A stretch of DNA of 64,000 nt from Pseudotabrizicola sediminis. Lineage in GTDB: Bacteria; Pseudomonadota; Alphaproteobacteria; Rhodobacterales; Rhodobacteraceae. How positions within the stretch are numbered: the stretch's first letter is position 1; every line of letters starts with the position of its first letter. Location: the NCBI RefSeq assembly GCF_004745575.1, contig NZ_RPEM01000001.1, forward strand, positions 1 through 64,000. The letters are read 5' to 3'. A program made the position numbers and the translations under genes. This document shows, in pieces, positions 802-22,617 of this stretch. The notes beneath the pieces were generated by a model. That model worked only from the letters and a program-made list of their open reading frames with translations, did not search any database and was not told the DNA's origin.

Positions 802-5078
<4,277 letters not shown>

Positions 5079-5103
5079 TCCGAAACGCATTTTGTTCACA
5101 TAT

Positions 5104-5118
5104 GTTCTTAAAAAGTTC
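5104..5118 (+). promoter_or_regulatory. LexA (SOS) box
   Basis: GTTC-N7-GTTC (5104-5107 and 5115-5118, spacer TTAAAAA) is an exact match to the SOS operator known for Rhodobacter and other alphaproteobacteria. A third GTTC at 5094-5097 has a six-base spacing, and GAAC-N7-CAAC at 5142-5156 is a near match on the other face. A weak promoter, TTTACA (5119-5124) then AACAAT (5143-5148) with 18-bp spacing, abuts the box, so LexA binding would block it. The gene controlled is the microprotein at 5176. Confidence 0.75.
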
Positions 5119-5175
5119 TTTACAGGATAACGTTGGCATGAGAACAATATGGCAACACGCATACAGGAGGATGCC

Positions 5176-5295
5176 ATGGTTGCCCAAGTCAAGGAAATCG
5201 TCACCCGGTCCCGCGCCACGTTGATCGAAGATCTGTTGGGCGTGTTTGCCCTGTTTGCGTCGCTGTATCTTTGCCTGTCGCTCACGTCTCTCTGA
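5176..5295 (+). CDS. SOS-controlled 39-residue membrane microprotein
   Basis: A 39-codon gene with an excellent ribosome site (AGGAGG at 5165-5170, five bases before ATG). The first 19 residues are charged and hydrophilic (VKEIVTRSRATLIED). Residues 20-39 (LLGVFALFASLYLCLSLTSL) form one hydrophobic segment, predicting a single-pass inner-membrane peptide with a cytoplasmic N-terminus. It lies behind a LexA box and ahead of a strong terminator, so it is probably transcribed alone on DNA damage. I recognise no homologue. Caulobacter SidA, a tiny SOS-induced membrane inhibitor of division, is a functional precedent, but I see no basis to claim homology. Function is inferred only. Confidence 0.65.
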   Translation: MVAQVKEIVTRSRATLIEDLLGVFALFASLYLCLSLTSL

Positions 5296-5373
5296 CACTG
5301 CCTGCGGTCTGATACCCGCGCGCCCGCATCTGTCCCCAAGTGATGCCATTGCGCGCAACAGATACGCCACTTG

Positions 5374-5408
5374 CCGCCGCCGTCTCTCCGACGTGCGGCG
5401 GTTTTTTT
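5374..5408 (+). terminator. Rho-independent terminator after the microprotein
   Basis: CCGCCGC-CGTC paired with GACG-T-GCGGCGG around the five-base loop TCTCC, followed by seven T residues (5402-5408). It closes the SOS microprotein transcript and separates it from the convergent Fe-S scaffold gene. Confidence 0.8.
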
Positions 5409-5436
5409 ATGCCGGAACGGTCACGCGGGGCAGGGG

Positions 5437-5889
5437 TTAGCCTAGCTGCGCAGCCGCCTCGGCCATCGCAGCGGCCTCTGCCGCGGCCTCGATGGCCAGC
5501 AATATCGACGCATGGCGGTTCTTGTAATCGCAGGCCGGGGTCAGCACGACAAACCCGTCAAACGGCGCGGCGGGCACCGGGCCTGTGCCCTGCAGCATGG
5601 CGCGCAGGGCATCGCGGCCCGTGGCCAGCTCCGCAGCACTGCGCCCGATCACCACTTGTCCCAGCAGGCTGGCGGCGGCTTGCCCCAGCGCGCAGGCCTT
5701 GACGTCCTGACCAAAACCGCTGACCCGGCCATGCTGCATCACCAGATCCACCGTCACGGTCGACCCGCACAGGGGCGAGCGTTTGCGCACTGTCGCTTGC
5801 GCCTCTGGCAAGCGGCCATGGTGTGGAATGTCGGCGGCCAGTTCCAGAATCCGCCCGGAGTAGAGTTTGATCAGGTCACTGTCGCTCAT
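5437..5889 (-). CDS. IscU/NifU-like Fe-S cluster scaffold protein
   Basis: 150-residue member of the IscU/SufU/NifU N-terminal family, which assembles Fe-S clusters on three conserved cysteines. Candidate ligands are C41 (in SPLCGST), C66 (in KACALG) and C120 (in LTPACDYKNRH). These resemble the IscU ligand positions, although the whole is more divergent than housekeeping IscU. In Rhodobacteraceae such proteins often sit beside hisI. The C-terminus is Ala/Glu-rich. The start at 5889 gives MSDSDLIKLYS with AAAAGGAAA ahead of it; longer upstream reading has no ribosome site. Divergent from hisI with a 64-bp gap that must hold both promoters. Whether it acts as scaffold or carrier is not shown. 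Confidence 0.8.
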   Translation of the reverse strand: MSDSDLIKLYSGRILELAADIPHHGRLPEAQATVRKRSPLCGSTVTVDLVMQHGRVSGFGQDVKACALGQAAASLLGQVVIGRSAAELATGRDALRAMLQGTGPVPAAPFDGFVVLTPACDYKNRHASILLAIEAAAEAAAMAEAAAQLG

Positions 5890-20324: not shown

Positions 20325-20747
20325 ATGGCCATCGAACGCACGCTTTCCATCATCAAACCCGACGCCACCCGCCGCAATCTGACCGGCAAGATCGTTGCCA
20401 AATTCGAAGAGGCCGGTCTGCGGGTTGTCGCCTCCAAGCGCATCCACCTGTCGGCAGCGCAAGCCGGTGAATTCTACGCCGAGCACAAAGAGCGCGGCTT
20501 TTATGGTGAGCTGTGCGAGTTCATGGCGTCCGAGCCGGTTGTGGTTCAGGTTCTGGAAGGCGAAGGCGCCATTGCCAAGAACCGCGAAGTGATGGGTGCG
20601 ACCGATCCGGCGCAGGCCGATGACGGCACTATCCGCAAGGATTTCGCGCTGTCCAAAGGCGAAAACTCGGTCCACGGTTCCGACAGCGCCGAGTCAGCCG
20701 CGCGCGAGATCGCGTTCTACTTCTCGGGTCTCGAACTGGTCGGCTGA
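20325..20747 (+). CDS. ndk: Nucleoside diphosphate kinase
   Basis: 140-residue Ndk, which transfers the gamma phosphate between nucleoside triphosphates and diphosphates through a phosphohistidine. The active-site signature NSVHGSDS contains the catalytic His (about residue 117), and the N-terminal [11 protein letters not shown] and [16 protein letters not shown] motifs are intact. AGGAGA precedes the ATG. The 3' end overlaps the convergent TfoX-type gene by 31 bp on the opposite strand, so the two transcripts share an antisense segment. Confidence 0.97.
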
Positions 20748-21145: not shown

Positions 21146-21173
21146 GTCTGGTTCAAGGTTGTTCTTTATATGT

Positions 21174-21290
21174 TCAGATCGACGCCCAATCCTTGAAGAC
21201 CGGTGCGCCACCCTGCTGCTGGGGCGCGGGTGTGCCGCCCTGCTGCTGCTGGCCACCCTGTTGGGGCGTAGAATTCTGCTGGGGGGTCAT
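21174..21290 (-). CDS. Gln/Gly/Pro-rich microprotein
   Basis: 38 codons on the minus strand from ATG at 21290 (or 42 from ATG at 21302). The sequence is a low-complexity run of Gln, Gly, Pro and Thr (MTPQQNSTPQQGGQQQQGG, then APQQQGG), closing with an ordered-looking tail APVFKDWASI. A GGAG lies seven bases before the 21290 start. The composition changes sharply at PVFKDWASI, which suggests a short recognition motif on a disordered leader. I do not recognise the family. Whether it is translated is unproven; the clean ribosome site and non-random composition are the support. Confidence 0.45.
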   Translation of the reverse strand: MTPQQNSTPQQGGQQQQGGTPAPQQQGGAPVFKDWASI

Positions 21291-21549: not shown

Positions 21550-22617
21550 ATGACCCTGCCCATTCCCGTTTTCGATGGCCACAACGACCTGCTGCTGCGC
21601 CTGTTCGCCGCCCCTGACCGGCGCGCGGAAATCTGGCTGACGGGCGAGGGGAAGGGCCATCTGGATCTGCCACGGATGCGACAGGGCGGCTTTGCGGGGG
21701 GGATGTTCGCGATTTACGTGCCGTCGCCGGGCACCAGGGCTGCCGCCCGGCTGGATACGATGATGGATGTGCCGCCCTATGACCTGCCGCTGCCCGCACC
21801 GCTGACGCAAGACGTGGCGCTGCGGGTGGCGCAGACCATGGCCGATGACCTGCATTGGATGGCCGACAGCAGCGGCGGCGCGTTCCGGCTGTGCACCACG
21901 GTGGCGCAGATAATGGCGGCGCGGGCGGACGGGGCGATCGCCGGGGTCATGCATATGGAAGGGGCCGAGGCGCTGGATGCAGATGGCGCGGCCTTGCAAG
22001 CGTTCCGCGCCCGCGGCTTGCGGTCGCTGGGTCCGGTGTGGAGCAGGCCGACAATCTTTGGCCATGGCGTGCCGTTCCGCTTTCCCGGCGACCCCGATAC
22101 CGGGCCGGGGCTGACCGAGGCGGGCGCGCGGCTGGTGCGCGACTGCAACCACTTGCGCATCCTGATCGACCTGAGCCATCTGAATGCCCGGGGCGTCGAT
22201 GATGTGGCGCGGCTGTCGGATGCACCGCTGGTCGCCACACATTCGAACGCCTGGGCCATCACGCCATCCACCCGCAATCTGACAGACCGTCAATTGGCGC
22301 TGATCCGCGAGTCGGGCGGCATGGTGGGCATCAACTTTGCCACCGTCTTCCTGCGCGAGGATGGGCGTAGATCGCCTGACATGACGCTTGACCCTTTGCT
22401 GCGCCATCTCGATCACCTGATCACCCATCTGGGCGAAGATCATGTGGGCTTTGGGTCCGATTTCGACGGAACCACGGTCCCTGCGCCGATGGCCGATGTG
22501 ACCGGCCTGCCGGTGCTGACCGATGCCCTGACCGCGCATGGCGTCAATGCAGAGCTGATGCAGAAACTGTGCTGGAACAACTGGATGGCGGTGCTGCAGC
22601 GCACCTGGGGCGGCTGA
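21550..22617 (+). CDS. Membrane dipeptidase-type peptidase M19
   Basis: 355-residue zinc dipeptidase of the renal dipeptidase (M19) family. The first metal-site motif is VFDGHNDLL with H11 and D13; MHMEGAE supplies the bridging Glu; DLSHLN and ATHSNA carry the later His ligands; and GSDFDG closes the barrel. No signal peptide is visible, so unlike the mammalian enzyme it is probably cytoplasmic. Substrates may be dipeptides or D-amino-acid dipeptides. It stands alone, with about 250 bp of non-coding sequence upstream and the convergent transketolase downstream. Confidence 0.9.
   Translation: MTLPIPVFDGHNDLLLRLFAAPDRRAEIWLTGEGKGHLDLPRMRQGGFAGGMFAIYVPSPGTRAAARLDTMMDVPPYDLPLPAPLTQDVALRVAQTMADDLHWMADSSGGAFRLCTTVAQIMAARADGAIAGVMHMEGAEALDADGAALQAFRARGLRSLGPVWSRPTIFGHGVPFRFPGDPDTGPGLTEAGARLVRDCNHLRILIDLSHLNARGVDDVARLSDAPLVATHSNAWAITPSTRNLTDRQLALIRESGGMVGINFATVFLREDGRRSPDMTLDPLLRHLDHLITHLGEDHVGFGSDFDGTTVPAPMADVTGLPVLTDALTAHGVNAELMQKLCWNNWMAVLQRTWGG

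Follow-up and report, generated by a model that had tools for sequence, protein, structure and literature searches.

The locus downstream of recG raises the question of whether a gene of the DNA damage (SOS) response, coding for a very small membrane protein, is present there under the control of the repressor LexA. Within the window, the whole stretch of 64,000 nucleotides that was analysed, a small transcription unit was found complete on the + strand between recG and a SufU-like gene (Table 1). The initial annotation had described an exact GTTC-N7-GTTC box touching a promoter, followed by a ribosome site, a 39-codon gene with one C-terminal hydrophobic stretch and a terminator, all within positions 5094-5295. 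Each of these elements was recovered, the terminator, however, only outside that span, where RNA folding shows a stem even though the program scan returned no terminator. Operator 1 directly touches the -35-like TTTACA, and 97 bp separate the recG stop from the ATG of the microprotein. An in-frame ATG is also present at 5149, upstream of the ORF start, and the aligned start of the microproteins is at the position of the ATG at 5176 (ATG in 132/132 loci). Operator 2 and the conserved hairpin of the 3' UTR were not part of the initial annotation.

Table 1. Features of the transcription unit and its neighbours, in window coordinates.
Feature	Position	Strand	Remarks
recG	2979..5078	+	Upstream neighbour; NCBIfam NF008164 RecG, 1103 bits
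Third GTTC half-site	5094..5097	+	10 bp upstream of operator 1; GTTC at -10 in 119/131 aligned loci
Operator 1, exact LexA-type box GTTCTTAAAAAGTTC	5104..5118	+	In 131/132 loci; motif also before recA, lexA, uvrA
Sigma-70-like promoter, TTTACA (5119-5124) and AACAAT (5143-5148), spacer 18	5119..5148	+	9/12 match
Operator 2, reverse LexA-like half-sites GAAC-N7-CAAC	5142..5156	-	Overlaps the -10 and the likely transcription start
Shine-Dalgarno (SD) AGGAGG	5165..5170	+	SD-like 4-mer in 129/132 loci
39-aa ORF, ATG 5176, TGA 5293-5295	5176..5295	+	dN/dS 0.12; homologues in 354/394 family genomes
3' UTR motif CTGCCTGCGGTCTG	5298..5311	+	Just past the stop; CTGCC[TC]G in 97/132 loci
3' UTR hairpin GCATC-[TGTCCCCAAGT]-GATGC, C-rich loop	5326..5346	+	RNA model R1 match 5296-5354, 56.3 bits
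Intrinsic terminator, GC-rich stem then T run	~5373-5408	+	Sequence and RNA fold
SufU-like gene	5437-5889	-	Downstream neighbour; match below its model's cut-off

The profile search (E ≤ 0.1, one genome per genus) found homologues of the microprotein in 354 of the 394 Rhodobacteraceae genomes, and in 313 of 347 when only genomes of good quality were counted. With the single sequence as query (E ≤ 1), matches were obtained from all 16 genomes of the genus, the own genome included, and from 11 of 21 genomes of other genera of the family, while outside the family two of 24 genomes gave matches, both of them spurious. The draw of 385 genomes of the class included six with a match at E ≤ 0.01, of which five belonged to the family (own genome included) and one was spurious. 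Going by the family and class draws, the gene is restricted to the family, yet nearly universal within it. The single-sequence matches L027, L029 and L030 were dropped as spurious since the recG search gave no match there, and the class-draw match L102 because it was inside a long frame. A search with a made-up consensus query found no plasmid copies. Genomes G130 and G424 had three profile matches each and some others two, which may represent paralogues or chance matches.

The neighbourhood was compared in 132 distinct loci, composed of 27 from the single-sequence search, 29 from the family and class draws and 80 further ones, minus four duplicates (L076, L083, L087 and L089) removed before counting; these loci are a subset of the better-scoring protein matches, of which about 160 were listed for the profile search, and the counts may overstate conservation in divergent members. 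The initial annotation had made its proposal depend on box and ORF being conserved together downstream of recG in relatives, and this was found both in these loci and in a string search. An exact GTTC-N7-GTTC was present within 125 bp of the ATG in 131 of the 132 loci (about 0.14 expected by composition), at a distance of 66-115 bp (median 78), and in 129 of the 132 recG was located upstream on the same strand, ending 80-302 bp before. The exception, locus L167, has kept a triple GTTC repeat with N6 spacings. The extended box ATGTTCTYAAAAAGTTCTTTACAG, searched as an exact string in a collection of 84,980 species, was present in at least 119 loci, and among the 119 listed the ORF followed in every one (E ≤ 0.01) and recG was upstream in 118. 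The titles of 80 listed loci were all of Rhodobacterales, except for three MAGs labelled only as Pseudomonadota. The string GTTCN7GTTCTTTAC was found, almost always as a single copy, in 272 of the 394 family genomes; a hand comparison of the lists placed 267 of these among the 354 genomes that matched the protein profile and five among the 40 that did not. G093, which lacks a protein match, shows no recognisable ORF behind its box.

In nine loci of the genus, dN/dS was 0.12 in the frame of the ORF, whereas the two remaining frames gave 2.0 and 3.0. The comparisons thus support the microprotein gene next to recG as real, under purifying selection and situated behind an alphaproteobacterial LexA-type operator. 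As to the proposed SOS microprotein gene, the selection and the co-conserved operator stood, while the membrane location is a prediction from the sequence.

The bare motif GTTC-N7-GTTC was near chance frequency in the window (4 copies vs 1.33 expected), and in the genome it occurred 109 times vs 129 for the reversed control. The significance of the box is therefore due to its position and conservation and not to the rarity of the motif. The same box precedes recA (GAACACTTGGGGAAC), lexA (GAACACGGGCAGAAC) and uvrA (GTTCTTAATCTGTTC) in the own genome, where both recA and lexA (TIGR00498 match) are present. It also precedes a putative ImuB-like frame with only weak polymerase IV matches. In the accounts of PMC9578287 and PMC12700426, GTTCN7GTTC is the SOS box of Caulobacter. 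Elsewhere in the window, a second AT-rich GTTC-N7-GTTC, GTTCTTTATATGTTC, was found at 21161-21175 (+), between ndk (20325-20747, NCBIfam match) and an unassigned 355-aa frame (21550-22617), and it may represent a further SOS promoter. Two identical boxes, GTTCTATGTTTGTTC, are situated about 10 kb apart on contig C1 of the own genome (L062 position 1452, L063 position 1354), within or close to short frames that look alike, which points to a repeated element.

Downstream of recG, the consensus of the family was GTTC-N6-GTTC-N7-GTTC-TTTAC, followed further on by TGAGAACAA and then GGCAACA. Of 131 loci, 117 had the operator 2 motif GAAC-N7-CAAC, which is present in a single copy in the window, against an expectation of about 0.25; the looser GAAC-N7-NAAC was found in 129 and the exact GAAC-N7-GAAC in six. 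The gap from TTTAC to GAGAACA was 16 nt in 103 and 17 nt in eight of the 111 loci with both, which places the motif over the -10/+1 region. We infer that operator 2 may be a second, weaker, reversed LexA site and that the microprotein gene is probably controlled by LexA. The box could also be read by another repressor recognising GTTC direct repeats in 10- and 11-bp phasing together with the reversed pair. The boxes of recA, lexA and uvrA are simpler than such an arrangement, and L167 retains the triple repeat although with N6 spacings, but the exact LexA consensus in all the other loci and the recG neighbourhood, which agrees with DNA repair, leave this reading very improbable.

The microprotein is 36-45 aa long, and exactly 40 aa in 100 of the 132 loci. 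Its N-terminal half is charged, and a hydrophobic helix covers approximately residues 20-38. Among the 100 forty-residue members, seven residues were nearly invariant (T15 in 97, D19 in 99, G22 in 100, L26 in 97, L30 in 96, L34 in 100 and P37 in 96), K6 and R11 were each kept in 82, and no member had K or R past residue 19. Conservation over residues 16-36 was periodic at 100 degrees (p 0.0064 by permutation). This points to a single conserved face of the helix and fits a specific helix contact better than a generic lytic peptide. AlphaFold2 (67 sequences) predicted one helix spanning residues 2-38 with a mean pLDDT of 86.8. The earlier view that the protein is not recognisable held true: no significant match was found in Pfam (SulA included), NCBIfam, PHROGs, PADLOC or PDB sequences, and weak family matches, the best with E 0.014 (TMEM238), appeared in only one or two of 22 members.

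An SOS peptide of the TisB/DinQ type would depolarise the membrane or slow down growth, leading to tolerance, and would not bind the divisome. Size, single helix and LexA-type control all agree with such a peptide, and also the two operators agree with tight repression of a harmful product. However, toxins of this type are patchily distributed, as opposed to the nearly universal microprotein, and the promoter/terminator scan showed no antisense RNA gene. Also the leader, as judged from the promoter, would be short, about 20 nt before the SD, leaving no long inhibitory leader, and the conserved helix face with the nearly invariant D19, G22 and L34 suggests a specific partner. Even though DinQ has been described as an SOS-regulated single-transmembrane toxic peptide (PMC3567139), a toxin of this kind seems quite unlikely here.

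The 3' UTR of the microprotein gene closes with five or more T residues in 127 of the 132 loci. The motif CTGCC[TC]G was present within 60 nt past the stop in 97 of the 132 loci vs 8 in shuffles, and GTCCC in 122 of the 132 3' UTRs vs 40 in shuffles, the latter often as UGUCCC(C) in the loop of the hairpin, whose stem reads GCAUC/GAUGC, with variants. The RNA model R1, built on 28 loci picked for showing the hairpin, matched 46 of 80 loci at E ≤ 0.01, including 29 of the 63 non-seed loci; of 80 examined from the at least 119 ATGTTCTYAAAAAGTTCTTTACAG loci, 38 had a match at the same threshold and 42 did not. The own genome included one strong match, at the microprotein 3' UTR (1.4e-9; next 0.5). 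In alignments A3 (0.254 vs 0.123) and A5 (0.208 vs 0.109) the covariation score was above that of each of the 500 shuffles and of every slid control. Both alignments had, however, been fitted to R1, and the sequence of their inner base pairs hardly varies. The RNA hairpin is thus well supported in many members and undetected in about half.

The transcript might then be bifunctional, so that its 3' UTR, released or in place, would act in trans as an sRNA through the C-rich loop and CUGCCUG. The covarying, single-copy hairpin in the same place in many genera and the excess of GTCCC would agree with this, and a precedent is DinR, an sRNA derived from the 3' end of dinI (PMC10907235). However, the pairing tests were negative. 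The ftsZ start region, chosen a priori by the DinR analogy before the leaders were viewed, gave a mean z of -0.36 and own-genome ranks of 15, 36 and 23 of 92, and over 30 genomes the median p was 0.46. Pairing of the 3' UTR with its own leader was equally rejected, the cognate and non-cognate energies being -22.3 and -22.4 kcal/mol (60 of the 132 loci). With, in addition, the hairpin unseen at E ≤ 0.01 in 42 of the 80 ATGTTCTYAAAAAGTTCTTTACAG loci examined and no Rfam family matching at 4900-5600, a bifunctional transcript is considered unlikely. By eye, CAGGC/GGACAG in the ftsZ SD seemed complementary to the 3' UTR. The ftsZ SD region CAGGCGGA was kept in 30/30 genomes (L189-L218), and this unusual SD may bear on ftsZ translation. 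The broader reading, a pan-Rhodobacterales SOS effector in which a helix-only checkpoint microprotein and a trans-acting 3' RNA are expressed from a single promoter under LexA, with a pair of operators facing opposite ways, is rather unlikely; if true, one shared process, either division or cell-cycle control, would be acted on at two levels, by the protein and by the RNA.

The best explanation of the locus as a whole, with about an even chance of being right, is an SOS gene with a promoter shut by LexA, the product of which is a membrane helix that halts the late divisome until repair. LexA would bind operator 1, upstream of and touching the -35, and probably also the degenerate, reversed operator 2, and the promoter, covered on the -10/+1 and -35 sides, would be tightly shut. 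After DNA damage, RecA-driven cleavage of LexA would open it. The transcript, with its presumed ends, would be about 250 nt long, its leader of about 20 nt being followed by a single ORF, the structured 3' UTR and the intrinsic terminator. The product of 36-45 aa would enter the inner membrane as one helix, with the N-terminus probably inside according to the positive-inside rule, and the conserved face T15-D19-G22-L26-L30-L34-P37 would contact a membrane partner. Our guess, from the analogy with SidA, DidA, SosA and YneA, is that this partner most likely belongs to the late divisome (FtsW/I/N), contact with which would hold division until repair is finished. Among the points against this explanation are the N6 spacer, in place of N7, of the 5'-most half-site pair, the degeneracy of operator 2 and the chance-level frequency of the bare LexA box in the genome.

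The likeliest function is that of a SidA/SosA-like division inhibitor, a suggestion by analogy for which the chances are roughly balanced; of the roles considered it best suits a protein that is little more than a helix with a single conserved face and would be under tight SOS control. No match to the SulA family was found in the own genome at E ≤ 1, so SulA does not appear to fill the role of SOS division inhibitor here; SulA is missing from many bacteria, and its absence therefore says little. No known division inhibitor was found to resemble the microprotein in sequence, and a non-divisome target, for example a kinase or a transporter, suits the sequence equally well. An SOS-linked membrane protein could act outside division, on a sensor kinase such as CckA, in gene transfer agents (GTAs) or in DNA uptake, to which LexA is also connected in Rhodobacter. 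In the account of PMC6473078, LexA, CckA and GTA are linked in R. capsulatus, and in D. shibae dprA, recA and the GTA cluster are each preceded by LexA sites. The restriction of the microprotein to the family agrees with such a role, but no co-localisation with those genes was seen and the locus is fixed beside recG, so that a role outside division appears decidedly unlikely.

The searches of the open PMC literature found neither this ORF nor any SOS gene lying behind recG described; the gene may be listed in subscription papers (e.g. the R. capsulatus LexA study cited in PMC6473078) or in supplementary tables. The recG-linked microprotein is apparently undescribed and, judging from the conserved operator and coding sequence, very likely a real part of the damage response of the family. 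Rhodobacteraceae are abundant in sea and soil, and to our knowledge no SOS checkpoint protein is known for them. Such a small, widespread gene, consistently tied to its operator, qualifies as a strong candidate for a core output of the SOS response that is missing from the protein-family libraries, and it makes directly testable how Rhodobacteraceae stop division after damage. Also the conserved 3' UTR hairpin points to possible control by RNA in the SOS response of alphaproteobacteria.

Several known systems share features with the locus. DinR, the Klebsiella sRNA from the dinI 3' end, is similar in that an mRNA of a LexA-controlled small protein has a functional 3' end, as may be the case here; DinR is described as pairing with ftsZ (PMC10907235), whereas here the ftsZ pairing tests were negative. 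SidA of Caulobacter is described as an inner-membrane SOS division inhibitor of 29 aa acting on FtsW (PMC4211646, PMC9578287). Compared by features and not by sequence, the likeness to SidA includes a tiny membrane protein (predicted here), the GTTCN7GTTC operator and the alphaproteobacterial SOS response, while the present proteins are of 36-45 aa, fixed beside recG and accompanied by a conserved 3' UTR RNA. DinQ and TisB of E. coli are likewise described as SOS-regulated membrane peptides with a single helix, as predicted here. They are toxins under antisense RNA and structured leaders, in contrast to the predicted short leader and nearly universal conservation of the microprotein. SosA of Staphylococcus and YneA of Bacillus are similar as SOS-induced membrane division inhibitors, but these Gram-positive proteins have extracellular domains, whereas the microprotein consists of almost nothing beyond its helix.
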